The notes beneath the pieces are model-generated. The model was not told the DNA's origin. It saw only the letters and a program-made list of their open reading frames with translations, and did not search any database. The translations under genes and the position numbers were made by a program. From NCBI GenBank assembly GCA_950106755.1, contig OX467083.1, positions 50,668,555 to 50,732,554 of the forward strand: DNA of 64,000 nt, read 5' to 3'. Source of the DNA: Climacium dendroides (Eukaryota; Streptophyta; Bryopsida; Hypnales; Climaciaceae). Below are positions 910 to 38,054 of the stretch, in pieces (the stretch's first letter is position 1; the number at the start of each line of letters is the position of its first letter).

Positions 910-1076
910 CAACCAAATAGCACTTCGAGGGCATACAAATTCTTAAACATTGAGCCAGAAGATGATTTTTAAAAAAAGGGTTTCATATATTAATTACAAC
1001 GAATGGTCATTTACTTGAAATACATAGTACAAAATGCCTGGACCCCTGCATGTTCAATCACACGGAAGTGTAAACT

Positions 1077-12295: not shown

Positions 12296-12819
12296 TGCTC
12301 AATTGAAAAAAATAAATATAAAGCATAGAAGACGTCTTCCTAGAAAATGGGAAAGCAACCAAGAAAAAGAAATGACATGGAAAAGAAAAGAAAAACGAAA
12401 GGAAAAAAAGGGAAGTAAAGTGTAAGAAGGAGGGTACTAAATGACAGAAAATAGAAAAGTAAAAGGGTTTACAAGTAACAGTGGAGGAAAAAAAATTAGT
12501 ATGGACTTAGGGCACGGAAAAAATTAAAAAACATACAAGTGCATGACGAAACATAAGAAAGTCAATTTCAAGAAGAATGAAATACTAATGGATAACCAAG
12601 GGAAAAAAAGGGGAAAGACTAGAAAAATACAATTCAAAAAAAAAAAAAACACAAAAGAAGGAAAAGAAAATGTCATTCATGTTCATATTTTTATAACTAC
12701 ATTCTCGCTTTCAATTGCAATTTTCAAGCTTCCATTTTTTTTAAGTTTCCATCAATTAAATAGTATTTTAAATATATTAATAAAATACCACTGAAATACA
12801 TATGAAGTCTACTACATGC
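12296..12819. other. A-rich spacer downstream of the MULE gene
   Basis: Purine-rich, poly-A-like DNA with only a lysine-rich chance frame. It lies 3' of the minus-strand MULE gene and could hold its 3' end. Nothing else is seen. Confidence 0.4.
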
Positions 12820-15800: not shown

Positions 15801-16698
15801 GAGTTTTTTTACAAAGTTTGCAAACTAGAGTACAATCTCTGGGAGGAGTATCCCCTACTGTGAAAGCGAAGGTTGTTGAACCACTCCACTCAGTTTCGTT
15901 GTGCTTTGAAGCCCTCTTCAGATAGTCACACTCTACATTTAGACAAATAAGATGACCAGCGCAGTATGACTTACAGAACTTCAACTTATCAGAGTTGTGG
16001 ATGTTTGTGGTCACCAACTTGCACCATGGGTGTCCATCATATCTCTTGTCCATTCCCTCCAAGTTCTTGGCCGCTAATGAAGAAGAAGATGAACGACATG
16101 GAGGCAACTCAAATATGACATTTCCATTGAAGACGGGTGGAAGAAACTGTACGCGATGGTGCTTCATGCTGTTCAAGTCCGTCATCGACAACTCATTCCG
16201 TGAACGATGCATTTTCCCTAATCCCCTCAAAGACTCCATTATACTCACTCGATTCCCTACATCTGGATGCAATGGAGGACGGGACACTTGAGTTCGACCT
16301 CCACTGTTTGATGGGGTGCTTGACAGTGGCTTCACCAAAGTATTTTCTTGCCATGCAACTTTGATATTGCACGCATTTTTGTGAACTGTTAAGTCAGGGG
16401 ACTCTCCTTCTAATTCACTAGACAACTCTATGATGGCATCTAACTTCTCAATTTTCACTGGGCGGAGAGTAGAATTATCAAGAAGGATTGGAAGAGCTTC
16501 ACGACTAGGACTGGGTGAAACCATATGAGCAACATATGGCATATCTACAGAAGAGTTATCTAACTGCCGACTTCGAATTTCTGTTGATGCACCTACCATA
16601 GACAGTGGCAGTCCATACGCTCTATAGTTTCCAATAGGAAGATACCAACACTGACTTCCTTCCTCTGTAGACTTCAATATTGGAATTGATTGCTGCAC
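12820..16698 (-). CDS. Mutator-like (MULE) transposase with SWIM zinc finger, decayed
   Basis: Two exons join in phase 0: about 16698-14698 (donor GTAAGT) and 14208-12820 (acceptor TCTAG). The first exon has a Cys-rich N-terminal part and then the MULE catalytic core: the first Asp region at MMFDHVKRVKDW (about residue 486), an E...W/F helix (SEDTKIQVQFWRSL), the second Asp region GFMADSAMANWNAV (about residue 551), and the conserved C-x-x-H as TCLLHW. The second exon ends with a SWIM zinc finger, CTCPDF...VNCKH, the usual partner of MULE cores. It would act in the nucleus on the element's terminal repeats. There are two in-frame TGA codons, near 13797 and 13516, where the frame otherwise stays open, each one step from CGA. 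No clean ATG opens the first exon. This copy is probably inactive. Confidence 0.72.
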
Positions 16699-16707
16699 TT
16701 CTCCTCA

Positions 16708-19700
16708 TTCAGACATTCTCTCTTCTTCGACATAGATGGAAGACTCTACAAATCTAAAGCGGACGTGCAATAGATGGCTTAGAACTCTAGCATGTCCACC
16801 TTCATCTACTGGAAACACTAGGGGAATGTCATGGCCATCTACACGAATACAAGCCATGATTCAAACTTTGCTCTTGGAGAACAATATGGATCAAAGAAGG
16901 CAGTCTTTGATCTCTTGTCAATGAATATTTGCTTTCTTATAGTGTATGGATTTGTTACTGTGGAACTAGTGAAAATAAAGGAGGATGGAAGTTACTAAGT
17001 AAACTGGAAGTGTATGGAAAAATAACAGTTGGAAAATAACTTTAAAAAAATTCCAATCATAGTGCCATACAGTGAAGCATTTATTGTTGTTGGCGGCTTT
17101 AATCAACACATTCAATGCATCCACAATAGAAGTACTTGCACGCCAATCATACAAAATAAAATGACATGACTTAGACTAAGCTACTGAGACAAACATAAGT
17201 CCAAATTCTTTCAATACATTTGGTCATGACATGTCTTGTAAGAGTGTAATAGGTTTGAAACATCCTTTGCTATAAATTCGTACGTGTATTCCATATGATT
17301 GATGTACTTGGATGCACGGTCTAAATGCAATGTTTGAAGCAATGCACTTCTGATGTTCATGGGAAAAAATCTCTAAATGCAACTAAGTATGGGAAAATCA
17401 ACTCTTCATATAGGACAAGAAAACAGTACAATACCATAGAATAACCTATTCTTTGTGTACGACAAGAAGCCTATAGAATCAAATACTATCTAGAAGAATG
17501 AGAATCAAAATTCAAAATGTCACTAACATCATGGCTTTTTCCAAATTAGAATAAAAATCTTTACAGATCAGAATCCAATGTCTTCTCCAACTTCATGGTT
17601 GCTTTCTTAATCCATGATGCTCCTTTTGGTTTTTTAAAGCATTATTAATAAAATAATTTGCATAGAATCCGCCTTTTACTCGGAGTTCACTTATAATTAT
17701 TATTAGAGGCAAAAATAGAACCAAAGGAATGAACTTGAGCTTGGATTATTCTTCCACAATCTAGAGAGCCCCTTCAATGAAAACATTCTATTTCCTAAAT
17801 CATAGCTGCAGGTAGTACCATGGAGACACAACCAAGAGGAATCGAGTGGGTATTAAGGTTGTAATGCAGAAAGGCAAGACCTGGTAAGTCCAGTTGTTTA
17901 CTTGCACTTCCTTTGTACTAGAGGGCAAGTCCTCTATGCGGAGTCCATATTGAATCCCTCCTTCCTCATTTTCAAGAAATGATTCGTTTCCCTACATTCC
18001 TATAGTATTCTAGTTCCAACTTATATAGTTGAATTTTAAGAAAAACAATATTTTCTTTAATTTTTTGCTCACTACACAAAAATGTCACATTTTTTTACAA
18101 TTTCTTCCCAAAACATGCCTTGGGACTTTAGAGGTTAATTCAATTGCTAGATGTTTTATTTTATTTTATATTGCGTGTTTTCCTTGTAAAAAATTCCAGA
18201 ATGCTCATGACTTAAGGGCAAAGACAAGACTTCCTTATTATCCAAGTAGCCACTAAATAGTTGAAAATAAAATTGTTTCTACTAGAAAAATGTAGCAAAA
18301 AATGTATCTTGCATTGTTTGAATTAACTTGAGTTATGATTTGATATACAAATGTTACCTAGCAGTAAGACATGTACATCCATGAGCACCCTACTAAGGAT
18401 TTGATCATAGTTCCTATTATTACTCTAACTTCAATTTTGTTGAATCTTGTTGGTAATCGAAAGAAGATCCCAACACAACTGAGCATGTATTTTGGTGCGC
18501 TATATTGAAAGTAAAAAACTTTGGAGTGTTGCTCGTAGGTGTTCTCAATTGTCTTTGGGCTTCTTTAGATTGCAAAGGTAAAAGAAACAAGCTCAAATTT
18601 TTAATCAGTATCATGCGTTCATGATATTCAACTTATAAGACCAGTCCCATGGGCGCAGGGAGAATTGGCCCCTTCATTGGCCCGGTCAACTTTGATTTGA
18701 CAGAAAAAAAATTATGTTGTGCCATTTTTTTGAGAATTCTTGCATCTCCTCCGAGGTAATTTGGGGCCTCTGATTGCAAAAATAAATTCAGAATTTAAAA
18801 AAAAATTAAACCTTGCAAATAGAAAATTCCACGGGTTGCAAGGTAGGGGCAAGGACGGGGGTCAATTCACCCTGGCCATCCCATGGCTCACTTGGACTTC
18901 TCCGAAACCATGCAGTGCGAGAAGAATCTTCTCAGTAGTGCGCAGTGAGAATGTCTCATCGACATTCTCGGACCAAATCAAGGAACCCACCTACTTCCCT
19001 ATTGAAGGAGTCGCCAGGCTTTGACAGCATTTTACTCCTTGCAACAGTGCTCCCTTAAGACGTGGTGCGAACCAGCCTTAACTCATGTACCATCTCCTTT
19101 TATATTTTGGGCACATCATGATTCAAAGTACCCTTGAATACCTCGCTCAAGAATTTGAACGCCTCGCCTTTACAGATGGGTGGTTATTGTGGGATAGGAA
19201 GCCGCCAGTGAATGAACCTGGATTGCCGGCGTCCATGAAAGCTCCTCTGCACATGGTTGCGGTTGAGGGTCCACATGTAATTCTCGAAGTCCTTCTGAAT
19301 TTTAGATTATGACAACCTGTGGTATAAATCTTGGCTTGAACTCGTCGGTTTCTCACATCTGGTGGTCTTTGCAATCTACTCCGTGGTGCCTTCAATTCTA
19401 AAGCACTTCGGTTCTTGTTCTTGTTATTCACGATTTGGCAGCAAGAGCACCGTTACTTCACAATGAGGAATACGAGGAGGCGTGGAAGACTGGGAAGTGA
19501 AGATTCGCAAACAAGGTTGGCGGCACGCATCGAAGACATGGAGCAGGTAATCACCGACCTCATCTTATATTTTTTTTTGTTTTCATGCAGTCCGGTTGAT
19601 ACATGTAGTTTTTTTTTCAAGGGAGATTGACCGTAAACCTCCAGTACACACTTCCATGTATGAACCCGTTAAATTCACCAACTATGATGCTTAAAGGTTG

Positions 19701-20320
19701 ATCATTGTATATAAACCTGCCCATTCTATGGATCTGTATCGCTTTCATTGTCCGCTTCTAGTTTATTAAGCTCATTCACATGAACACTGGATTGCCACTT
19801 TCTTTTGCTCGGTGCAATCATGATGGACAGCACTTGTACAAGATGTTCTTGATTAAGAGCCGGCCTCATTCTCGTTGTTTCAAGTCTGCAGATATTGAGC
19901 TAGTGTACAAATCCAATCTTTGTCTTAAGTAATTTTGAAACCTACTGGCCTCGAAGCGACTGGCTACAGGTGCTATTAATTTCTAGACACACATGAACAT
20001 AGAAATCTTGTGAACTGAGTATTCTGTACTTGAGGTATTCCTGTTGAAGTTCCATCTGGAGATGATTTCTTGGTTCTGAATAATTATTAGGCAAGCAATC
20101 AAAGCCTCGGTTGAACTCCAAATGCATACAAGTTAAGATCCATGGACGCATAGCCAGATGCTTTTGTCAAGTTCAGAGGATCGAACTGCTTCTCAGGTCG
20201 GAATGTTTAGGTGTAAGCCAGTTCAGCCAGTAGGACTCCTTTACATTCTGCCATTCGATTTCGATCATTCTTACCAAGGCCAGATCACGCATGTGGTAGT
20301 CGTTTCCACCACGTAAATTC
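16708..20320. other. AT-rich intergenic stretch, no supported gene
   Basis: No frame resembles a known protein. Two short stretches are less AT-rich: 18830-19030, and 19400-19550. The second encodes an Arg-rich peptide ending in RLAARIEDMEQ just before a GTAATC donor-like site and might be an exon of a lost retroelement gene. Neither is strong enough to call. Confidence 0.4.
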
Positions 20321-20325
20321 TGTCC

Positions 20326-21050
20326 CCATGCACATCGTCCTGCTGATCACCCTGATGTTTGTCGAATCTTATTTCGAAGGTGCAGCTCCTTCCAAGTTTC
20401 AATCGTAGATTCCATTGCAGATTCTCTACACAGTTAAGTAATTCTACATTTGCCAGCAGTTGAATGACATAGGTTTTGGGTATTTTAAAAATACCCGGAC
20501 TGTCCTAACGCCTGATCGATTGGTCTTCCTGCTTTGGTCGTACCAGAGATCGATGTGGAAAATATCTAGTAGTCGGAGTTGAGAGGACCCCAGTACATGT
20601 CTGCAGCCTACACCCCCCCTAAACCGCAAAACCGTAAGTTCATAATTCTATCTTCGAAGTCCGCAAACGGGGGTAGCAGTTCCGAGTTTTTCAATTTGTC
20701 CGCTTTCCAGTTGTGTTCCCCATGCACATCGATCATCATTGATGTTCGTCAAATTCTGTTTGGAAGGTGCAGCTCCTTACTAGTCTGAAGCGTAGATCCG
20801 ATTGCAGATTGTAGTTCAGTGAATTATGATTTGCGGGAATCGTTTCTTGTATAGTAAAAAAAAGGACCGTCTTACACTGTGATCGATGGGTCTTTCCCTG
20901 CTTCGGTCGTACCGGGGATCGACGTAGGAAATGTGGTTCAATCGAAGTTGGAAGGACCCTAGTGCATCTCTGGAGCCTACACCTTCGCTCCCCGGAATAC
21001 TCAGAAGATTAATGGTTTCACTTCCAAGTCCAGAAAGAGGGGTAGCGCTA
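20326..21050. repeat. Two direct copies of a 340-390 bp unit
   Basis: The segment from 20330 (CCCCATGCACATCG, then GGTGCAGCTCCTT, GATCGATTGGTCTTCCTGCT, GGTCGTACC) is repeated from 20719 with the same order of words and about 75-80% identity by eye. Each copy ends in a related phrase (AAGTCCGCAAACGGGGGTAGC-like near 20657, AAGTCCAGAAAGAGGGGTAGC-like at 21026), which is also the arm of the following foldbacks. Confidence 0.7.
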
Positions 21051-21124
21051 GGGACCCCAGGGACCCCAGTCAGACCCGACGGGGTTGTCAGGGGTACCTC
21101 GTGCTACCCCCCTTTCTGGACTTG
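21025..21124. repeat. 100-bp foldback, GGGGTAGC arms
   Basis: The arm CAAGTCCAGAAAGAGGGG with TAGC is inverted at the other end as GCTACCCCCC with TTTCTGGACTTG, one mismatch in 22 bp. The loop holds two tandem GGGACCCCA words. Confidence 0.75.
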
Positions 21125-21623
21125 CTGGCCCCATTGGATTCTCTTGAATCGAACAGATGCTTCCTACCCTAACCAACTGTTGCTTGTAGGGTTAAATTTT
21201 CTTTCGATCCTCCCCTTAAATAGATGCTTCGTACTCTTAACCCTAAATAGCAGTGCAGCTCGTCCCGTGTTTTCCTCAATTCGATCTTACCACCGCCTCA
21301 GACGTCAATGCAACTGGGCAAAGCAATAGTCTTGAAAAAATTCTCGCATGTTCTCTTTCCAAAAATTTGAGAATGATGAAGTTCTGTAAAATATCTAATG
21401 CTAGTGTTCTTTGATTCTTTGATCGGTAGGTAGATGCAAGTGTGAGGGGTACCACATTTGTAATGGATATTATCGGTACAAATATTATCTAGTAATTTGT
21501 TTTTAAAATAAAATATTTTTTTTAATAAAAAAATAATTTTATTTAGTTGATTAACATTACTTAAATTATTTAACTAGAGATTTTTCCAAGATCTTTGAAG
21601 GGCCAGCAAGTCAACCGGGCAGG

Positions 21624-21670
21624 AGGACCAGAAACGGGGGTAGCTCCGGCTACCCCCATTTTTGGTCTTG
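21624..21670. repeat. Short foldback of the same GGGGGTAGC family
   Basis: GGACCAGAAACGGGGGTAGC is followed after four bases by GCTACCCCCATTTTTGGTCT, so the two arms form an almost continuous hairpin. The outer words match the 100-bp foldbacks on both sides. Confidence 0.7.
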
Positions 21671-22175
21671 GAAGAAGGTGTACGGATGATGAGGCGACCA
21701 ACCAATCCAATGTCTTTTAGGAAAATAATTCTTTTTTGTCTTGTGGAAGTGACTGTAGGGCTTTTTAAACCTCCTTGAAGTTGTCCTAAGTTTTCTCTCT
21801 TTCCATGTTGAATGTTTTAATTAGTTTAATACTTCAACATCAATGGTCCTTGTCAGCGTTAGTGGCATGCCACGTGGAGGGAGATGCCAATTTCAATCAC
21901 TTGGTTTTGGTAGAACATTTTCTCTTGGACTGACTATGACAGTGTTTGCTCGTTTAACCATATATTCGAAGAAAATGTTTGAAATATTAATATAAATGCC
22001 TGTTATTTGTTCGTGGAAGCTGAAATGTGAGGAGATAAATATTTATGTTGTCTATAATCTTGCTGTATTCATACATTAATGTTAGTCTTAGTTGTGTCTA
22101 TGTGAGAGTTTCACGGGGATGTGAATTTCATGTTGTAATGTAAATAAATCCAAATTGACAGTCATGTTCTGTCAG

Positions 22176-22275
22176 CAAGACCAATAATGGGTGTATGGCT
22201 AGATAACCCCAGGAAGGCCGTCGGATCCGACGACATTCCTAGGAGTATCTTAATGTACCCCCATATCTGGTCTTG
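22176..22275. repeat. 100-bp foldback, third member of the family
   Basis: CAAGACCAATAATGGGTGTA at the left matches the inverse of the right end, CAAGACCAGATATGGGGGTA, with four mismatches in these 20 bases. Its length equals that of the 21025 copy. It lies 335 bp before the first plus-strand ATG of the next gene cluster. Confidence 0.65.
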
Positions 22276-22610
22276 CAAACCAAAGAAAGACTTGTAGAAT
22301 TATGATATTCTCATTTTTAGTGTTGAATAAGAATATGTCATGAGAAATAGGAGGAATTGAGAGGGGTAATTTAGAGTTTCCACTTTTTTAGTGTTTTCTT
22401 GCATAAGGGAAGTTCTACAAAGCAATTATGGAGTTCAATTTAAGTTGTATACATTTATGAAGTCAATAGAATTTACAATAATATAGCAACGTTTTGATAT
22501 TTATTTTATCTTCCCATTTGTCATTTGGTTTTTCTTCCTATTTGTTATAAAAGTTTGTTTGTTTGTTTTGATTGTCATTGGCCTACCTCATTCTTATAAT
22601 GCTTGTGCAG

Positions 22611-23063
22611 ATGGATACAGATGAGAGTCTGAACGAGCATGCACCTTTACCATTGCCAAGCAATGTGGCAACCCATATTGTAGATGTTGCGCGTACTTCG
22701 GAACTTACAACTCTAGAAGACAGGATTGTCAACATAGGTAGCCAATCATTGCCTCATAAAGACACTGACTTGGTAAGCCTTGGAGACATTCTTGATGCTT
22801 GTGACCGAGCCGTTGATGAATTAGATGAACCTCGTTGCAGTAGGTTCAACGACCCCAACAGACGAAAACGAAAACAACAAGTGTTTTCTCCTGAGAGTTC
22901 TGAGACTGAGTATAGTAGCTCGAATTCTGAAACATCAATCTCAATTTCTAGTCCAATAATAGAGGATATTAGAGATTGTGCTTGCAGCTCTGGTTTGGGC
23001 AAGCATGAAATTGTCCTCATCCACTTAAGCTCCGACTTAGATGGTACTATAGAAATTGATTGA
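22611..23063 (+). CDS. Small Ser/Asp-rich ORF just upstream of the ParB gene
   Basis: A 150-residue open frame whose ATG directly follows a good splice acceptor (CTTGTGCAG). It is acidic and Ser-rich, with a basic patch NRRKRKQQ in the middle that could be a nuclear signal. It ends 220 bp before the ParB/methyltransferase-like gene, whose ATG also directly follows an acceptor (GATATTGCAG). I do not recognise it. It may be a separate small gene or a decayed leading exon; the donor-like GTAAGC at about 22771 would not join to the next exon in frame. Confidence 0.35.
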   Translation: MDTDESLNEHAPLPLPSNVATHIVDVARTSELTTLEDRIVNIGSQSLPHKDTDLVSLGDILDACDRAVDELDEPRCSRFNDPNRRKRKQQVFSPESSETEYSSSNSETSISISSPIIEDIRDCACSSGLGKHEIVLIHLSSDLDGTIEID

Positions 23064-23283
23064 GTTTGGAAGGAGTAGACACCATTCCATTGCTTCAACA
23101 TTTGTATTACTTAACCATTGGTGTTATCATATTTCTTTCCATTACGTATTACTTTTACAATTTTTTGTAATGAGACACTTTTTACCATCATAGTAAAGAT
23201 TTGTTGTATAAATTTAAATTGTAATTTCATGAAGACATATTCATACTTCCCGATTGACTTAAAAAATGTACATGATATTGCAG

Positions 23284-26200
23284 ATGGAGGAGTCACCAAT
23301 TAATCTATCACAGCTAGAGGAAGTTCTATCAACTCCACCTACCAATGAAAGAAGTCAGCCAGAAATTGGCACTCAGGAAGAAAGAAATGCAGAGGTGAAT
23401 GTTGAGGAGGAGGAGGAGACGGAGTTGCTGGAAGATGAACTTCGACGGTTGCAGAAGGTGGACTCTGTGGCCACTATTGAGAGTTTGAGGATGAGGCCTC
23501 AAAAACACTCACGAATGCACATACCTTTGTGTAGATTGGTACCTATGCTAATGGTTAGACCCACCCTCTCTTGTGATCTTGTTAAACTTGAGCAAGAGTT
23601 TGTTCATGGATATTGGGATGGAGCCGCAGTTTTCTATGTGTCCACAACTAATGAGGCTGGGGAGTCCTCGGAATTCTCAGCAGCTGACATGGAGGCTTGG
23701 GGCCCTATATGGAAGGCAGAAAATGAAATCTTCAATGATTTTCTTAATTCTGTCCCGGAGCTGAGTCACTTAAAGAACTCCAAGTTCTTTATCTGCGATG
23801 GAAATCACCGTCGCTTGGTTTGGATGAATCATATTTCTAGGTTGCATGTTGCGGACCAGTCTTGGCACATTTCGGTGGACACCATAATTTTGGATACAAA
23901 GAGCAAAATAGAGTTGGTCATGCAAATTATGTATGACATCAACAAGTAAGTAAAATGACATCATAATTTATTAATTTATTGTTTCTGAGCTTTGACATTC
24001 AAAATTCCTAGGTTGAATTTGTATATGTCTCAGAAAAATACTTATTGTATTGTATGAATTGTAGGTCGACGGAGGATTCCCATGTGAAGACCAATTTGGT
24101 TCACACTCTGTACCGTGTTCAAAAATATGGACTTCTGCCTTTTGAAAAGTTCAATGAAATGTTGAGACCTTCTAAGAGGAAACGTTGTGGTATGCAAGGA
24201 GTGAGGAAAACATGGTATTCCATGCCAATTGAGGTCTTCACAGCATTTGTTTTTCGGGTGAGAGTTTCAATGTTCTGACAATGTTATATATCTTTCAGTA
24301 TTTATCATTATTGGATAGCAAGGGCTAAAACATTAACAAAATTGATGTAACTGAAATGATACTGATGATATTTTGTAGCAAGAGATAGCACAAGGAGCGG
24401 ATGCTGCAGTACGAAAGTACAATGAAGTGACAGCAATGGATGATAAAAGCGATGAGGGAGTGGCTAATGCCATGAGGACAGGAGCTAAAGAGAGGGCAGC
24501 TAAGTTATACGTGAAAATGGGGAAATTGCTTGCAGTGGCAAACCCTGCTCATGGTCCAGGATTTCTGGAAGAGGTGCTGAATGCATTTGAAGCATGAATT
24601 TGTTGTTGCATGTTTTATTTGAATTGTTAATTTGATGTTGATAAAATCTTATGTGACTTTGAAGGTTGAAAAGCATTGGACCACAAATGAAGTTCCGGAA
24701 ATGACTTTGGAAAAGCTCCAGATGATAGCCACTTGCAATACCTTTGCAACTCAGAAGATAAAGTTGTTGAAGTAGTGGAACTCATCCGTACCTTCACGGG
24801 ATGCTAGACGCTTCCCTCCAAAGCCAGTTTCCGAAGAGAAGTTGGGTCCCTTCCTCAATAAATGGGTCTGGTGGACAGGGGTAAGTGATTTTTTTCATGT
24901 GAAATAGCTTTATGTCTGTAATGTCATTTTCTTGAAGTGGTGCATTTTATTAATGTTTGACAACAATGAAAATTATTTAACAAGAACATCTTGTAGATTG
25001 AGGATTGCGCAGTGGAATACTTTGACAATGTGGTCAAGAAAGATGGCCTCACAATCAATATGGCAGTCCCTCTTCAACCGGAGTATCTTTCAGAGTATAT
25101 AGAGGGATGGAGGAGGAAGATTTGGGATCAAGGTTTCGGCCCAACTTTGAAGGGATCGAATCCTTTCAAGAAGTCCGAAACCTTCTTAAATTATGATGGC
25201 TCAAATGACACTGTTCGTAGAGTTATTTTTCGGTATGTTTAAGTGAATTTGGATTTTATGTTTCATCAATTTCTTAGAAGATTAGTATATGTGGTTATTT
25301 GTTTTGAGTGTTTGAGTTTTTTAAATGAAGTGAATTAGTTTCTAAAATACAATGACAACATTGAAGGCTACGGTACGATGAAACCCCCCCCAAACCTGCA
25401 TTAGGTCCAACAGGGGGAGTCGTAAACCTTCATTGTACCCTCACTATAGCATTATTTTATAGAATAGTCGTGCATAGTAGAACTTCTTTGGATGCCTAGA
25501 ATACTTTTGTGGTGAACAACTGTTTCTGATTCGTTTTTTGAAGTTGAAGTGGTCAGTTGTGTGAAATAACCCTAAACATTGATATTTTAATGAGTATTCA
25601 AATTTTGATATGTCATTATTATTAAATTTTTTATGTTCTTATCATAGGTACTTCAAGTATGAGCTCTTACAAAAGAACGCCATCTCTAGGGAGGATCTTC
25701 CTCCATTTCTGACCACATGGTTGGATCGGAGTTCTGAAGAATGCATGTATACATCCAGCCAACTGAAGACATTCACCACAGTTCATCTTAGTGGTGGTGC
25801 ATGGTATTTAGATTGTCCATTGACATTCACTCATCCATCAGAGGTGGAACTTCGAAAATCATTAGATGGTCTCGGCGTCATTGATGTGGAGGTTCCCGAA
25901 TTCAACAACTACACTGATCAACAAAAGAAGAGAGCAATTGCAAGGAGGATGGTTGCTGACAAGAAGAAAGAAAACAAAGAGCAGGAGATTCGTGAGAACA
26001 AGGAGAAAAAAAAAGCAGAGCGTCTTGCGAAGTTGGTAGAGAAGGAGAAGGAAAAAGAGGAGGGCAAGGGAAAAAACAAAGGCAAGAAGAAGGAAGAAGG
26101 GAACAAACAAGTACCAACCTCTTCAACGGTTGATCAAAACTCGCACATGCAAAGTGGATCGCAAAGTGGAATGAAAAGAAAGGCAGTACTTCCAGATTTC

Positions 26201-27858
26201 ACAGAGGATATGGTGACACAAGGTACTGAGGTCATAGTTGTTAGTGATGATGCAGACGTTACTTCAGAGGAATTGATCTTGAACGTCTCTATTGCTGATA
26301 TTATGGATAACATGGAGTCTGAGGGACCTACATGCTATAGTGAAGTTGAGACCTTTCTAAACAAGGTAAGCATTGTTTTTTTCCTAAAACTTTGAATCTT
26401 TTTGGGGGGGATTTTTAAAATTTTCAATTGCTATATGAAATATTGATTATTTCAATTAATTTGTTTCTGCAGTTCGCATCAGGGGAGCCCCGTATGTATG
26501 GAGGTAAAGTGAGCCGAGCACCCTTAGTGGACCTCATCTTTTTTGACTGCCAAGAGAATTTACCTGTTCCAGAGGTATCTGCTTCAGAGAATGCAATACC
26601 TTCATGGAATTCAGACCCAGAGTATGAGGCCATTCAATCGGCCTTCCTCTTTGCAGATATGCACTTACAAGACCATGGTTGCATGATAGTATTTCAGTCA
26701 TGGTGTGCCGATTCAAAGGGCATTATTGCAGGATTGTGCGAGTCTTATCCTTCATTGGTGAAGAAGAAGGAATGGTTGGGCATCAATCGTATGCACTTAA
26801 CCTCAGCTGTGGATGACTCCGAAACGGTTAGTGTTTTCAAATGTTTTTATGATTTTAATGGAAATTGGCATTCTGAAATTGTTGTATTCAATTCTAATAT
26901 ATATATTTTTTTATGACTCCAGACTTTGAAGTTTGGAATCACTCTTCTGGTGAAGGACCTTGGTGATAAAGAGAAGTCGAAGTTCTTTTTGAAGCGGTCA
27001 CAAGCAATGCAGAAGGCGAAAGTAGACCTCCGCAAGGATGACACATTAATTAACTACACAACTGAAGATATCATGTTGATCAATCCAGAAACCAAAATTC
27101 CATGGCGAGGCCCTCGCGAAAAAGATAGTAGGCTCTTCCAATTTCTTATAGAAGGGACAACTGAAGAAGGAGACTTGGTTTTGGACTGCACAGCATCTAC
27201 TGGTTAGTTTTCATTTCAATAATTGATTTTTTATATATCTATTGACATAGTGATTCATTCATATCATGAATTGCATTTTGTAAATTGTAGGTGCATCGAT
27301 TACAGTATGTCGCGGTACGGGACGACATATAGTGGCTTTGGAAGAGGACAATAATGTCTTTAATGGTGTCCTTAGACCCATGAAGAAAACCACTGAAGTA
27401 GATGTGATAATAACTGAAACACAACCACCACCACCAATTACATCTTCACAAGATCCAGACGCCATGACTATAGTGCCTCGAAAATTTCCTCGCCGAACTA
27501 AACCTAGTAAGTAAGTTTTTCATATTTTTGGAGTCTCCCTTTACATACTACTTCTTCTATTTTGTAATTCTAATATTCTATCTGTTCTTTTTGCAGGCGT
27601 CAAAAACTGATGTCCGCTAATGCATTGAGGAAGAGACGCAAACTTGTTCTAAGTCCGGAAAAGTCTTTTGATCTCCCAATTTATGCAGAGCAATTAGCAT
27701 CAGCGTTTGCAAACTTTGGTAGCTTAGAACCAAAACGTATAAAAGATACATATGCTCTTAATGTTTTGCAATTCATAGATGGATCAGCATCAGAGGGAAA
27801 AGAGACTTCAGAGTCTGAGAGTAGCTTGGCATCTGCAACTGAGTCCATTGCAACTTAG
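23284..27858 (+). CDS. ParB-like domain plus degraded permuted DNA methyltransferase, 10 exons
   Basis: Exons 23284-23945, 24065-24257, 24379-24573, 24665-24880, 24997-25232, 25648-26365, 26473-26826, 26923-27202, 27291-27510 and 27597-27858 all have GT-AG borders and join in one frame of 1112 codons. Residues 167-178 (FFICDGNHRRLV) match the ParB/Srx motif DGxHR, followed by the expected strand and helix ending in DINK. Residues 591-655 are a Lys/Glu-rich coiled coil. A methyltransferase fold follows in beta-class order: LVDLIFFDCQE (Asp765 to Glu768) at the DPPY place, then PWRGPREKDSRLFQFLIE and GDLVLDCTASTG (Asp946 to Gly952) at the DPFAGSG place, then GRHIVALEED. The C-terminus has basic nuclear-signal-like runs. 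The DPPY motif is lost, so methylation is unlikely, but the SAM-binding loop is only partly eroded. One in-frame TAG (24773-24775, codon 387) interrupts it. Confidence 0.68.
25372..25437. repeat. Inverted repeat inside a ParB-gene intron
   Basis: In the intron 25233-25647, GGTACGATGAA...CCCCCCC is mirrored by GGGGG...TTCATTGTACC. The arms are imperfect, but the C-run/G-run and the GGTAC words are clear. It resembles the upstream foldbacks only in having G-rich arms. Confidence 0.45.
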
Positions 27859-29530
27859 ATTCATGAGATCGACATATCTCATGAGTCAAATAGTTACGTA
27901 TTCATTTTCAATATGATTTGATTTCATTGTGTGTTTTATGGCTACATCTTTAGTATGATTTATTTCCCTTCACAATTTTGCATTCTATATTTTCTATAAA
28001 AATTAATCACAATTGATTGTTGCAATTTTTTATTTCATTTAAGTTTGTAAGTAAGTTAAATTTTTTAATAATGAACTCATATTTTTTTTTTAAAAAGACA
28101 CCTACATCCACGGTCATAGGTCCCTCACATTTTTTTAATAAAAAAAATTTCCCGCTCACAGGCTCACAGGCTCATGGGCTCACGCTCACAAGCTCGCCTG
28201 CTAGCAACCCTGCACAAAATGGCAAATACATTGAGGAACACTATTTCCCCATTTTTTTCATTGCTACATTATTCCACCACACTTGCATGAAGAAATGGGA
28301 GAGTAATTGAGCAATACTATCTCCCCATCTTTTTCCATTCCTCAAGTATTCCACCACACATATGTGAATAAATGGCAAATAAATTGAGCAACAATATTTC
28401 CTCTTTGTTTTTCATTGCTTTGTTATTCCACCACCCTTGCATGAAAAAATGGGAGAATAATTGACAAACGTGCATTTCAAGTATTACACCAAACATGCAT
28501 GTATAAATAGCAAATAAATTCAACAATACTATTTTTTTTTTCTTCATTGCTACGTTATTCCACCAAACCTACATAAAGAAATAAAAGAGTCTCTCCATTT
28601 TTTATCATCATTGCGACATTCTCCCATATTTGCATGAAGAAATGACAGAAGCATACCCCTTGAACCCTAAAACCTTCAAAATATTGAAAACCCATTTGTC
28701 ATACCCTAAACCCTAAACCCTAAACCCTAACCCTCTAAAAATTCATAGCCTCAAAACCTTGAATCCTAGAACCCAAAAATGGACTTGACAGAAAATAAGC
28801 CAACAAAAAAGGCCTAAAAATACTGAGCAATCGATGGGCACACGACCTGAGAAGTCAACCTACCGGAACTATAGCAGACAATTATGTGTATGGACAAGTT
28901 TTTTTTGGAAAATGCATTGGTGGAGGCACATCTTTCTTGTAGAAAGCTGGCAAAAGCGCCTTCAAGCGAATGATTGAACACCCAAGAATCAAGGAGTTTG
29001 CAGAAAATTTGAAATTTGGAATTGCTCGCTAAAATGTTCCCGCTTTTTCCAACTTTTTGCCCATCTCCTGCCACGTGCATGTTCACTTGACAGAACTTGC
29101 CTTCCTCCACAAATACGCTGAGGTGACTCTTTTGTTGTTGCTATTCTCTTGCGCTTCAAGTGTATCCGCATAGCACATTGACAAGTTCAAGTCTACAATG
29201 ATTTTTCTTCTTGTTTGTGAGTTCTTAGAAAGAAGGTGTACATTTGTATTTAAATTAGTTGCCATTGACCTCGTTTTCTAGTGAGTTTGTTTTGCACATA
29301 TTGATGTCAGGAAGTACGTGGTGCTAATCGTTGAAGGTCTATGTTTGTGACATCTCAATGTATGAAGACGTTATTTTTCTCGAGTAAGCTTGGAGACTAG
29401 GAAATTGGTTACTCGTGCTGTTAGTGAAGAGAGTTGTAACACAACGTTGTTTGCAATGCCCATTTTTTGTGGCGTGAATTTCGGAGCATTTCATGGATAA
29501 TTCCATCACCTCAAAACTGTCATTGAGGGT
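27859..29530. other. Spacer with dispersed repeats and a short telomere-like run
   Basis: No gene is supported. From 28200 to 28640 there are four to five degenerate copies of a phrase like TTGAGCAACACTATTTCCCCATTTTT...CATTGCTACATTATTCCACCA, related to the one at 11600-11740. At 28704-28731 lies a run of telomere-type CCCTAAA units. Confidence 0.5.
28704..28731. repeat. Short interstitial telomere-like repeat
   Basis: About four CCCTAAA units in a row, the plant telomere word. It is far too short for a telomere and is probably a repair scar or chance expansion. Confidence 0.7.
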
Positions 29531-30434
29531 ACTTATCGTTGAGTCGACAATAACAATGACCTCTTTGACTTCTGATTATCGTCGAGTCGATGATAACGTA
29601 GTCAGATTTTTTCAATCGGCATTCCTAGTAAATGTGTAGCTACTTCAATTTCTTCTGATTTCAAAGGAGAATGTGCATCGGGTTGAATTATTTCTTCTTC
29701 ACATCCAACGAATCATGAAAGGAATTTCATTGAGGGTAGTTATCGTTGAGTCAACGATAACTCTGAGTTCTTTGGCTTCTGATTATCGTCGAGTCGATGA
29801 TAAAGTAGTCGAATTTTTGCAATCGGCGTTCTTAGCAAATGTGTAGCTACTTTAATTTCCTATGATCTCAAAGGAGAATGTGCATTGGCTTGAATTATTT
29901 CTTCGTCACATCCAACGAATCATGAAAGGAGTTTCCTTGTTGGTACATATCGTTGAGTCAACGATAACTCTGAGTTCTTTGACCTCCGGATATCGTCGAG
30001 TCAATAAACCGTAGTCGAATATTTGCAATTAGCATTCTCAGCAAATGTGTAGCTACCTCAATTTCTTATGATTGCAAAGAAGAATTTACATTGGCTTGAA
30101 TTATTTCTTTGTCACATCCAATGAATCAAGAAAAAAGTTTCATTGAGGGTGGTTATCGTTGAGTCAACGATAACTCTAAGTTACTTGACTTCTGGTTATC
30201 ATCGAGTCGATGATAACGTAGTTGAATTTTTGAATTTTTGCAATTAGCATTCTCAGCAAATCTGTAGCTACTTCAATTTCTTTTGATTTCAAAGGAGAAT
30301 GTGCATCGGGTTGAATTATTTCTTCGTCACATCCAACAAATCATGAAACGAGTTTCATTGAGGGTACTTATCGTTGGGTCGTTGATAAATCTGAGTTTTT
30401 TGACTTGTGAATATCGTCGAACCAATGATAATGT
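29523..30434. repeat. Five tandem units of about 207 bp with paired palindromes
   Basis: Unit starts recur near 29531, 29739, 29945, 30151 and 30366. Each has a first palindrome of the type TTATCGTTGAGTCAACGATAA and, about 44 bp later, a second such as TTATCGTCGAGTCGATGATAA (29573-29598, 29781-29803, 30195-30217). Between pairs lie shared phrases (AGCAAATGTGTAGCTACTT, GAATTATTTCTTCGTCACAT). Units 3 and 5 carry broken second palindromes. The array ends 220 bp before the ATG of the DUF7869 gene and its first palindrome variant belongs to the same family as those at 7.3-8.1 kb. Confidence 0.88.
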
Positions 30435-30653
30435 CAACTATAAAAACAGTATTTGCAACTTTGCATTGAAAGGTACTTACTTAGATGAAGATGAATGACT
30501 GAATCATAGCACAAATCATTGTATCATCGATTCAACAATGTTGTATTTGTAGGAAATTATGGACACTTGATGCTATTGGTAAATATAGAGTATGTTTAGT
30601 TTCTAGTATACTATAAGTTGCTGTAGTAGAATATCTTTATCTTTGACTCAACA

Positions 30654-33539
30654 ATGAATCTAAGGAGTGATCTTCGTGCTTGCAGAATGGATTTCCATGG
30701 GTTTGATGAGTTTGCAAATCCAGTTCCCCCATTTCCACCTGATGTTCAAGTGTGTGAAGGAATTCCTCGTGCAAAATGGGTCTCACAGTTCGTCACTCTT
30801 CAAAACGAAGATGGGGTAGACCTTGCAAGGGGGGTTTGCCAGAACGTTGACCCAGAGTTAATCATTGACCAGGATGGAAAGCCTCTCGGCGATGACCGGG
30901 TTGCCATTCAAATTGCTGAGTCTCTGAATGAGGAACTCTTTTCCTCTGAGAATGTTTGGTCGCTTCGTTCTTGGGACATCAAGAGAGTTTTTTTAGATGA
31001 CGATGTTAGCTTATATGACCATGACCAGACCCATGTATATAACGCAGCCATGAACCCCTCAAGCAGAAGAATTCGTAAGGGGGTTCGATCGTATGAAACA
31101 ACTCGTGAAAGGATTGATCCTCAGATTCCTCCCAAGAAAGAACTTCTCCTCTCTATGGAATCGATCACATTAGTGTCCACAAAATCATGTTGTGAGAAAA
31201 TTTGTGTTCAACCTTTTCCGCATGGGCAAATCCAAGCGATAAGGACTGAACTATATTCGGGTGAGGACTTCAAGGCGCGTAGCAAGACACTTTTGGAGGT
31301 GCATAGGCAAATCCATAAAGACAGTGGTGGCAAAGAGTGGATTACCTTGAAAGGCAGAGAAGTGTGCCCCACTGCGTGGTGGATCATTCATGAGATTGCA
31401 AGAGCTACGTTCTATAGGTACAAAGAGAAGGCTAGAATTGGGAAGCAAGCTCAAGTGCATGGAAATGTGGAATCCAAAAAACCCCGCATTCATACTCTTC
31501 AAGCTACTGCCACGCTTCGAACTCTTATTGAGTCTGATGCCGATCGAATGCCACACAAAACAAGGACAATAGAGTCTGGAGAGAAAGTTGCAGCGATGGA
31601 TCTACCCTCCGCTTTTCGTTGGAGTGACCAATTGCCTAAAATCAATGAGTCCAATGCAGAGTTCAATTTGCAGCCGATTTCTTCCAGTGGCTTGAGCAAC
31701 ATTCGCCGTCAGAATTTCCCTGAATTTGTTGCCAAGGCTCGTGGGGATAGTTTTGCTAGGTGTGGCTTGTGCGATGAGTATAAGCAATTGAAGAGTGCTT
31801 GTTGGAAATCAGAGTCGTTTGATAAATATACCAACATTTTGAATACCCATGTTGCAGGTCAGAAGGCTCATAGAGAGTACTACTATAGAAATTGGGAATT
31901 TTCCGTGAGATGCCCGGACAAAATGTTGTGCATCATTCATGATAAAATGGATCACTCAAAAACGACTTCTCCACACTTTTCTCACAAGAACAAATCGACG
32001 GAATCCTTCATGAAAATGCGTGTTGCTGTTACAGGTATGATTGCTCATGGTCATGGCGATGTACAATATGCACACTATGGTGTGGGCATTTTTCCAACAG
32101 ATTTGAATCATACCATTGGATTCATTGCAAGGTTGTTGCGGAATTTGGAAGGGCCGCCTAAGAATTCATCAAGGGCATTATTTTCTATTGAGGGGGGGCA
32201 ATCCACATTGATAAAGGCGCTTTTAAATGGAGCAGAAAATTGCTTGGACTCCCTCCTTCCACCTCCAGAACAGCCACTTCCAGCTCAACCTCTCCCACCA
32301 ATATTAATATTGCAATTGGACAATGCGTCAGGGGACAACAAGAATCGATATGTTTTTGCTTTCTGCTCTTTGCTTGTATACAAAGGTATTTTTCGTGAGG
32401 TATACATCAACTTCCTTATTGTGGGACACACTCACGAAGACATTGATGTTCTTTTTGGTCGATGGAGCTCAAGATTGAAGACGAATGACTACCCAACACT
32501 TCCAAAGCTCATGAAGTCCTTTATGGATTGTGAAACGCACCCTGTGATTCCTCATCTCATTGAGGAGCTCCCTGATTTCAAGAAATTTGTGGAGGGTTAT
32601 TTGGGCACTGGTGGTGATGAATTAGGGGGGCATTCAAAAAGTCAACAATTCAAGTTTTTTATGGATTCTTTAGGATGGCCTTTGATGGAGTATAAGAATT
32701 TGTGTACTGACCCAAAGTGGTTGCCAGAGCACGGCAATGGGATAAGAATGTGGTCAGAGACTGAGGATGGACTTCCTAAAGTACCAAGTGGTAGCCCTAA
32801 ACCTTTGGCTCCAGTTCCAATGAAAGCTCTTGAAGACATAAAGAAAGGTTTGAATGGCTATGTTAGGCATTGGAATAAAATGGCAAACAATGATCATAGT
32901 GGAGAGTACAAGCGGAAGAATGGTCCACTAGAAGAGTATTGGAAAGGCATCAGAGCTGCTCTAGATGCACCTCTTCAGGTGCAGGAGGCATTACTTGATG
33001 GATTTTGGCCAGCTTCAAGGATTGCCAATGATGAAACAAATCAAATGCAAAGAAATGGCACATTGCGTGAAGAAAATGCGGAGGATGCCAAATTTGTTGG
33101 ACGTAAGCGTGATCGTCCACGTTCTTCGTTTCGTGTTGCTCGTGATACACACGCAGGTTCTTTTGTTGCAGTGCGTCCTGCTGATGGTGATCCAAAACCA
33201 TTTTGGCTTGCTAGGGCTATTACGGCTCCGAGTCTCGATCCAAGGCATATGCATATGATCAAAATCCAATATTGGAGGCCTACTTCGGATCGGCACATTA
33301 ATATGGAGACATATGAAGGTTGGGACACCAAACAAGGGAATGTGTGGCGTAAAGATAGCGTTATACCTTCAACATGGTCAAGTACAGATTGTATCATGAC
33401 AGCTTGGAAGCCACGGTTTCGTGACGGAACTAAAAATCCAAAGGTGACGGTTCCAAGCTTGCAAATTCAAATCATCAAGGCATCAGTGGCAGCCTTCACG
33501 ACTGATGCAAATATCGATGGTTCTATGGTTGAAGAATGA
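30654..33539 (+). CDS. Intact intronless DUF7869-type transposase-like protein
   Basis: An uninterrupted 961-residue frame from ATG to TGA. The middle part has a Cys-containing module (GREVCPTAWWIIHEIARATFYRY; then ARCGLCDEYK), followed by a core typical of DUF7869 proteins: CIIHDKMDHSKT (Asp430, Asp433), LQLDNASGDNKNRYVF (Asp556, Asp561) and VGHTHEDIDVLFGRWSSRL (His592, Glu595, Asp598). The spacing of acidic residues on beta-strand ends looks like an RNase H-fold DDE/D nuclease, so a transposase is the natural reading; the catalytic triad assignment is mine. Near residues 835-870, SFVAVRPADGDPKPFWLARAI...IKIQYWRP resembles a small Tudor/BAH-like chromatin module. It differs from its neighbours in having no introns and no nonsense mutations. 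A tandem palindrome array lies upstream and a terminal inverted repeat 420 bp downstream. Confidence 0.7.
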   Translation: MNLRSDLRACRMDFHGFDEFANPVPPFPPDVQVCEGIPRAKWVSQFVTLQNEDGVDLARGVCQNVDPELIIDQDGKPLGDDRVAIQIAESLNEELFSSENVWSLRSWDIKRVFLDDDVSLYDHDQTHVYNAAMNPSSRRIRKGVRSYETTRERIDPQIPPKKELLLSMESITLVSTKSCCEKICVQPFPHGQIQAIRTELYSGEDFKARSKTLLEVHRQIHKDSGGKEWITLKGREVCPTAWWIIHEIARATFYRYKEKARIGKQAQVHGNVESKKPRIHTLQATATLRTLIESDADRMPHKTRTIESGEKVAAMDLPSAFRWSDQLPKINESNAEFNLQPISSSGLSNIRRQNFPEFVAKARGDSFARCGLCDEYKQLKSACWKSESFDKYTNILNTHVAGQKAHREYYYRNWEFSVRCPDKMLCIIHDKMDHSKTTSPHFSHKNKSTESFMKMRVAVTGMIAHGHGDVQYAHYGVGIFPTDLNHTIGFIARLLRNLEGPPKNSSRALFSIEGGQSTLIKALLNGAENCLDSLLPPPEQPLPAQPLPPILILQLDNASGDNKNRYVFAFCSLLVYKGIFREVYINFLIVGHTHEDIDVLFGRWSSRLKTNDYPTLPKLMKSFMDCETHPVIPHLIEELPDFKKFVEGYLGTGGDELGGHSKSQQFKFFMDSLGWPLMEYKNLCTDPKWLPEHGNGIRMWSETEDGLPKVPSGSPKPLAPVPMKALEDIKKGLNGYVRHWNKMANNDHSGEYKRKNGPLEEYWKGIRAALDAPLQVQEALLDGFWPASRIANDETNQMQRNGTLREENAEDAKFVGRKRDRPRSSFRVARDTHAGSFVAVRPADGDPKPFWLARAITAPSLDPRHMHMIKIQYWRPTSDRHINMETYEGWDTKQGNVWRKDSVIPSTWSSTDCIMTAWKPRFRDGTKNPKVTVPSLQIQIIKASVAAFTTDANIDGSMVEE

Positions 33540-33940
33540 CTTATAGTTCATAATTATATTAGTCAAATGTTGTTTTGGTAGTTCAATTAGAGTGCTCAAT
33601 GTAATTATTAACAAGTTTTGAGATGTTTACATTCATATATGTATTGGTTACTTTTATTATGGTAGTGTGCCTATGTATGAGAAATAGATCTCTATTAATA
33701 GTAAATTTATTTATTACTATTGTGTCTCCAAGTATTGCATTCTAAATGTTTTTGGTGAATTTTTGGTAATTTATATGTTTAATTTCATGTTAAACTTTGC
33801 TATCCTCCATGTATAGATTACTTCTTTGACATTTGGAAGTTTTGATTTGTGAGAAAAATCATATTTGACGTTTCTAGGTCTCAATTTAATAAAGAGTCTC
33901 AAATTAATGAACCCTTTTTCCACCTTACATGTATGAAAAA
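33540..33940. other. 3' flank of the DUF7869 gene
   Basis: AT-rich, no gene. Two GTCTCAA/ATTAA words near 33878-33905 echo the terminal repeat that follows. Confidence 0.5.
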
Positions 33941-33983
33941 TTAAAATGAGACTGCAACTTGTCTCATTTTAACGAATAAGGCC
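33941..33983. mobile_element. Right terminal inverted repeat of the DUF7869 element
   Basis: The outermost 23 bp (33961-33983) read GTCTCATTTTAACG with AATAAGGCC and match the right end of the MITE at 49884-50101. Just inside, TTAAAATGAGAC and GTCTCATTTTAA form a perfect 12-bp-arm hairpin with an 8-base loop (33941-33972). I could not find the matching left end (GGCCTTATTCG...) in the window, so the size of the element is unknown. Confidence 0.6.
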
Positions 33984-34149
33984 TTCTATATATTTGCATG
34001 CATATAATACCAAAAAAATATATATACAGAACATGTTGCAACTAAAAGACTTGCTGGTAGAGGATTTTGGCTAACAAACAATAGTCTATGCAACCATGCT
34101 TTCAATTTGAATACTAAGTATCAAAAAAAATAATTAGTTTTTCCATTAG

Positions 34150-34990
34150 CCATGGTGAATCCAAATCTTGAAAGGACCATAACTTTGCGAGAAGTTTCCA
34201 AATGGGACAAGCAAGCAGTCTATCGGCATCTACTCATTGCGTAGATGTCTAAAATGGGCTCACATGTCGGATTTGGAGCTCTGAGCACAAAATTACATCG
34301 GTTGGAAGTTCGAAAGGCTAAACGGTAACGTAACTTGGCGATTTGGATTGGAAGTGAGTGATCTTCTACAACCCAAAGTTATCCAAGGACTTCCTTCCAC
34401 TTAGGACGGGTGGTCTGTCGAATACCACAGAGAGTACTATAGGAGGGGTTGGTCTCCCTCTTCTCTCCCTCTTAAAGCCTTGGTGAGTCCCGGTGACTTA
34501 TGGGTGATGGTGGTGACTTCACCACCACTTCAAGGCACCATGAGACACTTGTGTATGTCCCGTGGCATCGGTTGGGTGGAGTCCTACTCCTTGCTAAGCC
34601 TCCTTGGATGTGTTCCGAGTTGTGAGTGTTGGTTACCTCTAGTGGATGAGTAGCAAATGTAAAAAAGGCTAGTATGGAGTGGAGTGACACTCAAGGGCGG
34701 TTAGGACCATGGTGAGTAGTGCCACTATGGGTCCTTGCACATTGAGGGAGAAGTCCCACCCTATGTTACTAAGTGACATACCCGATGTCACGATGGGAGT
34801 GTGTGCTAGTAGTTTTAGTGACTGAAACTTGACAAAATGAGTTGGAAATGTAGACTAACACTGTATGTGCTTGGCATGTGCAATAATAGGCAGTTTGTGA
34901 CCAAGTGATGCTATAAGTAAGTTGTGGTGAATCCAGTGAGCTGCTGAAAGTTGTAAAATGTCATTTGGGTCGCGACAAACTAGGATGTCA
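34150..34990. mobile_element. LTR-like fragment, direct copy of part of 53517-54808
   Basis: About 840 bp align with 53985-54808 in the same orientation at about 80-85% by eye, sharing GCGTAGATGTCTAAAATGGG, GGTCTGTCGAATACC and GTCATTTGGGTCGC. It ends in GGGTCGCGACA, a typical LTR end, but lacks the left TGTCACACCC end. The reverse strand has a short chance frame only. Confidence 0.65.
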
Positions 34991-36797: not shown

Positions 36798-38054
36798 TCA
36801 CTTCGAGAACGTGTCGAAGATGGTGGTGTGCAGGGGATCCGCAAGGTGGGTGGCCCAGTTGTCCAGGGGTCCCTTGCCCGTGGCGGCGGCCTGGACGGCG
36901 AACCCGAAGGCGGCAACCATGGCCAACCTTGCGTGCTTAATTTCGGCTAATTTCAGAACCTCCTTCTTCTCGGGATCGTCGGCCAACTTCAGTGGGTCGA
37001 AGTACTTGCCACCCGGGTACAGACGCTTCTCGGGGTTCAACTCCCCGTTCCTGTAGAACTCGATCAGGCCCACCAGAAGGACTTCGATGTAAACCAGGCT
37101 CGTGATGCTGAACGGCAGGGGCAGACCGAAGTACGAAGCACCGTCCACCAGCTCCACCTGACAACACACGGAGCAACGCAATCCCACACTCCTGTGTCAC
37201 AACTCCAATGCAATCTTACAAGCCTCAACTACAGCACCCACACCATCCATTCCTTTCAGGAAGAAGAGGCAGCTTCGTGACCACGACCCACTAACATTCT
37301 TTAATGCTTCCTGCACCGTACTGGCGGATAGCGATCGTCACCAGAAAAACTCCGAGAACCACCAAGAACGACTCCGAGCCCCACGAAAGCGCAGGATACA
37401 CATCGCATTGCTACACCGAGCGGAAAACCTTCGCATTCAATCGAACGCAAACACCGCAGGCGGGGCATACTCCACGCAATTTAGCAATACAATCACCAGC
37501 AGATAAAACCTCACCTTTCCGGCGTCTTGCCAAGTGACCCCCGTGAGCGCCTCCACGGACAGAGCTCCCAAAATGGCCAGCATCGCCCACCGGCCGTGGA
37601 TGAGCTCGCATTCCCTGAACCTCTGGAGCCCGAACACCTCGCTGTAGGGCTGGAACGGGGTCGGGTTGATGTCCGCCTTCTTCGACACTCGGCTCCCGAT
37701 CACGTCGCCGGCCAGGTTCTTTGCCAGGTTCTGGTTCAGCGAGTCCAACTCTACCTGCAAGTACTCGGGGCTCTTGCCCAGCGCCAGCGGGTCGAATCCA
37801 TAGTCGCCCACCAGAGACCCGTCCAGCCACTCCGGCGCCTTCGCCCCTGGAAACCACAGCGGCCTGTCGGCGCCGGAGCCCGAGAACTTCTTCTGCGCGC
37901 TCCTCGCCGCCTGCTTCACCTTCTTCGTGCCGGCCGCGAACCTGGCCACCACGCGGGCGCCATTCGACCTCCCCAGGCGCTCCACGGAGCCCACGAACTC
38001 GCTCGTTCCGCAGAACGACGACGCGATGCTGGCGCTCCTCAACGCTTGAGCCAT
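36798..38054 (-). CDS. LHCB4: Chlorophyll a/b-binding protein CP29 (Lhcb4)
   Basis: Two exons, 38054-37515 and 37157-36798, join after GVTWQDAGK in phase 0 (donor GTGAGG, acceptor TTGTCAG) to give 299 residues, close to the usual 285-290. CP29 is a minor antenna of photosystem II in the thylakoid membrane that passes energy from LHCII to the core. The first 55 or so residues are a Ser/Arg-rich chloroplast transit peptide. The mature part has the Lhcb4 signature [20 protein letters not shown], the helix B region [16 protein letters not shown] (Glu148, Glu150, His153, Arg155) and the helix C/A region [20 protein letters not shown] (Glu252, His255, Arg257), ending in [12 protein letters not shown]. 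The coding sequence is markedly GC-rich against AT-rich flanks, as for a highly expressed gene. All ligand residues I can check are intact. Start chosen at the ATG before the transit peptide. Confidence 0.96.

Follow-up and report, generated by a model that had tools for sequence, protein, structure and literature searches.

A ten-exon ParB / methylase-like gene carried by a multi-copy, probably Mutator-like DNA transposon in the moss Climacium dendroides

The stretch of the Climacium dendroides genome considered here (64,000 nucleotides of contig OX467083.1, positions 50,668,555 to 50,732,554; hereafter the window) carries a plus-strand gene of ten exons whose product joins a predicted ParB-CTPase fold to a domain related to permuted N6/N4 DNA methylases. 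This ParB / methylase-like gene belongs, as an accessory gene, to a family of DNA transposons present in many copies, one of which lies in the window between exact target site duplications. An earlier sequence-only reading had recognized the gene and both of its domains and took it for a captured and repurposed host gene. Its observation is partly confirmed and its interpretation is half right, the domains being correct and the kind of gene wrong, as the gene is repetitive and resides inside a transposon.

When joined, the ten exons (23284-27858) give 1,111 codons and a stop in a single frame, with GT-AG borders at all nine introns, and a spliced protein-to-DNA aligner queried with the 1,111-codon protein recovers the same exons in the window. 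The gene structure first proposed is thereby upheld, as is its single frame, in which a TAG in exon 4 (codon 387, 24773-24775) had been overlooked. This stop is private to the window copy and is found in none of four near-identical copies; the window copy would thus yield no full-length protein unless exon 4 is skipped, an event that the frame would survive, since this exon measures 216 nt in phase 0. The transposase-like open reading frame (ORF) of the same element is likewise interrupted in the window, by a stop at 16705-16707 that is absent from all four close copies. As each main gene is cut short by a stop found in no other close copy, the element in the window is probably defective.

The ten-exon layout, GT-AG throughout, recurs in six of the ten diverged copies fetched, with one stop in L029, five in L031, two in L034 and none in L036, L037 and L038. 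The last three encode stop-free proteins of 1,105-1,113 residues that are 56-58% identical to the window protein; the L037 model has no ATG at the aligned first codon and an in-frame ATG a few codons upstream. Among the remaining four, L030 aligned with two extra small introns and two stops, L032 is broken up by a long insertion and runs off the fetched piece, and L033 and L035 lose the match; L032, L033 and L035 are omitted from the gene alignment. Between the window and L029 the exons are more conserved than the introns (87.6% against 73.8% identity), as expected for coding sequence. Since even copies only 56-58% identical agree in domain order and in their ten exons, the old acquisition that had been suggested for this gene is borne out.

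Selection was estimated by the Nei-Gojobori method on the two closest pairs, window-L029 and L036-L038, for which the ratio of non-synonymous to synonymous substitution rates (dN/dS) over the whole gene is 0.14 and 0.15, respectively. The values are 0.10 in each pair for the ParB part, 0.18 and 0.21 for the methylase part, and 0.21 and 0.30 for the C-terminal tail; in wider pairs dS is saturated or nearly so. Between subfamilies, these values show, purifying selection acts on the protein. For recent copies the ratio is higher, at 0.47 (0.62 over exons 7-9), as would be expected if single insertions drift and selection acts on the lineage.

The edges of the transposon were set by an alignment of five further copies, each taken with 40 kb around it. 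Its left edge (window position 11744) is shared by all five and its right edge (28212) by four. The fifth copy, C3, has no right end and does not enter into the figures for duplications, stops and divergence. Per-block identity of the window element to the four co-terminal copies is 94.8-98.8%, and exact 10-bp target duplications flank all five two-ended copies, the window included, with a different sequence in each (CACAAAATGG in the window). The ends form imperfect inverted repeats rich in GAGC. Within the terminal 100 bp of the window element, six [TC]GAGC motifs occur on the left, all on the top strand, and six on the right, all on the bottom strand; in general each terminal 100 bp contains 5-6, always on the inward-pointing strand, against about 0.2 per 100 bp in the interior.

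A second, unoccupied copy of the target repeat, a paralogous empty site in which the target is present once, was found in the C38 region. There the sequences flanking the transposon (window 5396-11745 and 28213-33985) meet, indicating that the host site of the transposon is an older, larger repeat. Divergence over the whole element among the five copies is 1.2-2.6% (Kimura two-parameter) with transitions in excess, a pattern consistent with recent movement followed by decay.

A search of the genome from which the window derives (412.6 Mb, 123 contigs) illustrates the extent of this amplification. Part of exon 6, used as DNA, has at least 40 matches including the window (every one scored, out of 270 candidates); 25 of these, again with the window, are 97-100% identical over 634-651 of 651 bases, one is 98% identical over 506 bases, and 14 are 89-91% identical. 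Exon 1, used as protein, has at least 150 matches (every one scored, out of 1,029 candidates), and the final match listed still reaches an E-value of 9.5e-73 at 59% identity.

Table 1. Features of the transposon and its genes in window coordinates.
Feature	Position	Strand	Remarks
Whole transposon copy	11744-28212	.	16,469 bp; co-terminal at both ends with four other copies
Left 10-bp target site duplication	11734-11743	.	CACAAAATGG
Right 10-bp target site duplication	28213-28222	.	CACAAAATGG
Left terminal inverted repeat	11744-11793	+	GAGC-rich; imperfect, ~44 bp against reverse complement of right end
Right terminal inverted repeat	28163-28212	-	GAGC-rich; imperfect, ~44 bp
C-terminal ORF of minus-strand gene	12820-13467	-	SWIM-like zinc finger
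Further ORF of minus-strand gene	13786-14205	-	95-99% identity in five close copies
Transposase-like ORF	14641-16858	-	738-739-codon frame in most close copies
Small acidic ORF	22614-23063	+	149 aa; between both main genes
Exon 1	23284-23945	+	Acidic N-terminus and predicted ParB fold, residues ~75-220
DGNHRR	23797-23814	+	ParB box II position; from sequence
Exon 2	24065-24257	+	Splice model and spliced aligner
Exon 3	24379-24573	+	Splice model and spliced aligner
Exon 4	24665-24880	+	216 nt, phase 0; in-frame TAG
Exon 5	24997-25232	+	Splice model and spliced aligner
Exon 6	25648-26365	+	Charged linker at its end
Exon 7	26473-26826	+	Methylase-like region; motif IV position DCQE, 26545-26556
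Exon 8	26923-27202	+	Motif I position DCTASTG; final codon shared with exon 9
DCTASTG	27184-27202 plus 27291-27292	+	From sequence
Exon 9	27291-27510	+	Motif II/III region, GRHIVALEED
Exon 10	27597-27858	+	C-terminal tail, stop codon

The ParB-CTPase fold of exon 1 is predicted from an AlphaFold2 model, the best structural matches of which are ParB, Noc, KorB and sulfiredoxin, as the sequence-only reading had anticipated, with 12% identity to the matched chain. The Pfam family ParBc (PF02195) matches none of ten exon-1 proteins, and the region is consequently classed as having a ParB fold and not as a ParB protein. Weak Pfam matches among the ten are to DUF1015 (three proteins, best E 0.024), DUF6551 (one, 0.16) and unrelated families, Actin_micro (one, 0.014) among them; the N-terminal part alone gave no match in Pfam or PHROGs and one at chance level in NCBIfam, and a sequence search of the PDB with the ParB part gave nothing meaningful. 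The DGNHRR motif is well kept. In a 10-row alignment D, G and N are invariant, and a 79-row alignment comprising the window and 78 of 120 listed relatives from the exon-1 profile search shows no exception at N and H and more than 90% conservation at D, G and R.

That search, drawn from 5.8 billion proteins, scored 7,989 candidates and returned 712 matches (E ≤ 1, best 4.6e-112). A search with the whole protein of 1,111 residues, which likewise scored 7,989 candidates, found none at E ≤ 0.001, its length limits probably excluding single-exon ORFs. Scans with the exon-1 alignment gave 142 pattern matches in IMG/VR viral contigs and 61 in GTDB prokaryotic contigs, none of which was confirmed, and no viral or prokaryotic carrier was thus found in those collections.

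The C-terminal domain is, by profile comparison, related to the permuted N6/N4 DNA methylases, as first proposed. In the window it matches PHROG methyltransferase families (E 1.9e-8), CcrM (E 7.2e-5, far below the NCBIfam family cut-off) and, weakly, PF01555 (E 0.0081). The PF01555 match is strongest in L037 (E 1.1e-5, profile positions 29-217 of 221, 25.9 bits against a cut-off of 26.7) and is 0.014 in L029 and 0.093 in L036. A family profile run against the PDB found the adenine methylase M1.HpyAVI (5hfj, E 0.0011), and the weaker of the two aligned stretches pairs DCQEN with DPPYN. The expectation that both folds would be detected therefore holds for the methylase profiles and for the ParB structure; no sequence match to PF02195 accompanies them. 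Among the relatives, P0145 (jgi-sourced, 249 aa, ~35% identical) has the regions of exons 7 and 8 continuous and reads ADIPENLP at motif IV; it would either be without that intron or derive from a spliced sequence. Its structure model is poor (predicted local distance difference test 53) and matches M1.HpyAVI, CcrM and MboIIA, as well as METTL3, and these fold matches are supportive only.

Motifs IV, I and II/III were read by the classical methylase motifs and their roles. At the position of DPPY, D-x-x-E is found in all eight gene models, as FDCQE in six and as IDCPE or IDIPE in L036 and L038, with the first D and the following N invariant. A further 28 relatives were found by profile, 21 of which cover motif IV and 7 of which do not; the fourth place is E in 19 and K in 2, DPPY occurs in none, and although the pattern used presupposes D and N/K-L-P, the alignment confirmed its fit in all 21 rows. 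A companion pattern for the ParB box often landed on a different stretch, and its tally is set aside. The first proline of DPPY is kept in none of the 29 sequences made up of the eight models and these 21 relatives. Motif I, DPFxGSG in canonical enzymes, is replaced by DCTASTG (DCTAATG in L037), although across the models most of the motif I region (D, TG) and of the HIVALE stretch is retained; in the L034 model motif I is missing through a border misplaced by the spliced aligner, and tblastn shows DCTASTG there. Neither the (D/N/S)PP(Y/F/W) motif nor the FxGxG-type loop for S-adenosylmethionine (SAM) occurs in any of the models read.

DGNHRR, DCQE and DCTASTG are present, and the canonical catalytic motif absent, as the sequence-only reading had it, and DNA binding in place of methylation is still a plausible role. 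To describe the motif as decayed is misleading, since the changed form is common to the subfamilies and the region is under purifying selection. Decay confined to the window copy is excluded by D-x-x-E in 8/8 models and E or K in 21/21 relatives.

The second main gene of the transposon, on the minus strand and divergent from the ParB / methylase-like gene, contains the transposase-like ORF. This ORF has at least 65 matches in the genome (every one scored, out of 1,372 candidates), 55 of which have a divergent exon-1 match within 40 kb, at 4.0-9.1 kb in 51 cases; the other ten lack one among the 78 exon-1 matches compared, which are those of the 150 with an identity of about 79% or higher. The gene pair also occurs in a copy 56% identical, with the ParB gene in L036 and the minus-strand ORFs in L039. 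The latter are 71% (transposase-like ORF, which contains a stop), 88% (further ORF) and 81% (C-terminal ORF) identical to those of the window. Next to the C1 copy, a second transposase-like ORF, ~71% identical, lies at 834-3026 of the fetched 40 kb (L017) and belongs to a neighbouring element of another subfamily. Among close copies the ratio of non-synonymous to synonymous changes (N/S) is 1.56 for the further ORF and 1.37 for the C-terminal one. The small acidic ORF between the main genes (N/S 0.40 across five close copies) may represent a third gene, or else an exon lying upstream.

The superfamily is inferred, as a Pfam scan of the 685-687-aa transposase-like ORF gave no transposase domain and no match at all. 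The 10-bp duplication and a weak SWIM-like finger, with E-values (0.04 in the window and 0.28 in L039) that both fall below the Pfam cut-off, suggest that the element is probably Mutator-like (a Mutator-like element, or MULE). Terminal inverted repeats such as those seen here are usual, not universal, in MULEs.

Beyond the element, a long intronless plus-strand ORF (30654-33539, 961 aa) encodes a DUF7869 domain (E 3.4e-44); its surroundings match the C38 region, placing it within the repeat that holds the ParB transposon, and the elements are thus nested. Just upstream of this ORF are head-to-tail repeats with a period of ~207 bp (29513-30434), and a short run of plant telomere-type CCCTAAA repeats (28704-28739) lies near the right flank of the transposon. 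A direct repeat of ~820 bp (34155-34973 and 53985-54804, 83% identical) is partly present in the C3 region also. On the minus strand at 36798-38054, two ORFs jointly cover the chlorophyll a/b-binding profile PF00504 (E 1.1e-18 and 8.8e-20); like the CCCTAAA repeats, they accord with a green plant as host.

Comparison with known systems places the element closest to MULEs such as MuDR and VANDAL, with which it shares terminal inverted repeats, a possible SWIM-like finger following a transposase-like region, a further non-transposase gene, and a duplication within the 8-11 bp range given in PMC6446971 (in part; sources so marked are represented by a portion of their text). Unlike in those elements, the further gene here encodes a ParB / methylase-like protein of 1,111 codons. 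The extra genes in the table rows of that source are PMD, FAR1, SET, an ovarian tumour gene, MutB and DUFs, and the stem "methyl" occurs 0 times in its main text (PMC6446971, in part). VANC, encoded by VANDAL MULEs, directs hypomethylation of related elements via short motifs (PMC13317346, in part). The product described here would resemble it in being encoded by an inferred MULE and in its proposed action on the DNA of its own element, a likeness of gene context and proposed role.

In bacteria, ParB acts as a DNA clamp that depends on CTP, loading at a given site and spreading from there, and fusions of ParB to N6/N4 methylases are enriched in phages (PMC12704722, in part). The moss protein likewise joins a predicted ParB-CTPase fold to an N6/N4 methylase-related domain; unlike the phage and prophage fusions, it is eukaryotic and encoded by ten exons, has ~500 residues between the domains, and has its catalytic motif replaced. 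A tblastn search of phages with the methylase part gave 475 records at E ≤ 10, the best at 5e-3 among the matches listed, and all rows fall below 60% identity, representing methylases in general and no close relative. The beta-class N6-adenine methylases M1.HpyAVI, CcrM and MboIIA, which are among the best PDB profile or fold matches, share the order of motif IV before motif I and differ in having DPPY where D-x-P/Q-E is found here and DPFxGSG where DCTASTG is found. No published account of this transposon was recognized in the literature searched, as judged on titles and the starts of abstracts.

Taken with its context, the ParB / methylase-like protein is probably an accessory DNA-binding or anti-silencing protein of its probably Mutator-like transposon. 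As an accessory factor, its ParB part would load on or spread along the DNA of the element, perhaps starting at the inverted terminal GAGC repeats. The methylase domain, in its altered form, would recognize DNA, and possibly bind SAM, rather than methylate it. The benefit to the element may lie in shielding from host silencing, as with VANC for the Arabidopsis VANDAL MULEs, or in aiding transposition. Put together most simply, the protein would be a DNA-binding factor with which the element protects or marks its own DNA. A more specific form can be offered tentatively, in which a large and long-lived lineage of plant cut-and-paste transposons carries a ParB-type clamp fused to a pseudo-methylase, the clamp loading at the terminal GAGC clusters, spreading as ParB does from parS, and shielding the element from host DNA methylation or recruiting transposase. 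Such an arrangement would amount to self-marking of ParB type by a eukaryotic DNA transposon.

A role in the transposition machinery itself, as an end-binding or synapsis cofactor in place of anti-silencing, is the foremost of the less likely alternatives. The gene accompanies its transposase-like partner even where the latter is 71% identical, and the symmetrical terminal GAGC clusters could be sites for its product; these clusters may be no more than sites for the transposase, and nothing in the present results separates such a cofactor from an anti-silencing protein. It is more doubtful that the protein has DNA methyltransferase activity through a non-canonical motif (D-x-P/Q-E), marking element DNA with N4-methylcytosine (4mC) or N6-methyladenine (6mA) for protection or for guidance of the transposase. 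Bacterial-type 4mC enzymes are on record in Marchantia and a bdelloid rotifer (PMC12344493, in part), and the invariant D and N of motif IV, the largely kept motif I and HIVALE stretches and the low dN/dS of the methylase region would each agree with catalysis. The aromatic residue of DPPY is replaced by E in every model and by E or K in each of the 21 relatives covering the motif, and together with the missing first proline this argues against activity.

Very improbable is a passenger gene of no use to the element, picked up as by Pack-MULEs; gene capture by MULEs is well known, recent copies drift and several of those fetched carry stops, but such a passenger would decay, whereas copies at 56-58% identity still have all ten exons, three of them being stop-free. 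A dead passenger is ruled out by the selection between subfamilies (dN/dS 0.14-0.15). The weakest alternative, an ancient single-copy host gene of phage or bacterial origin reused for chromatin binding, has the domain order of the phage fusions in its favour (PMC12704722, in part) and is refuted at this locus by the copy numbers of exons 1 and 6 and by the transposon boundaries with their target duplications; a domesticated relative in single copy may exist elsewhere.

Should the reading as an accessory DNA-binding or anti-silencing protein be true, a prokaryote-type ParB and methylase module would form the second gene in a DNA transposon of a eukaryote, selected, much amplified and with its catalytic motif replaced. 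A DNA clamp or anti-silencing factor encoded by a plant transposon could then be put to the test. There is also a warning here that plant gene predictions with a ParB-methylase architecture may be transposon genes and not host epigenetic regulators.

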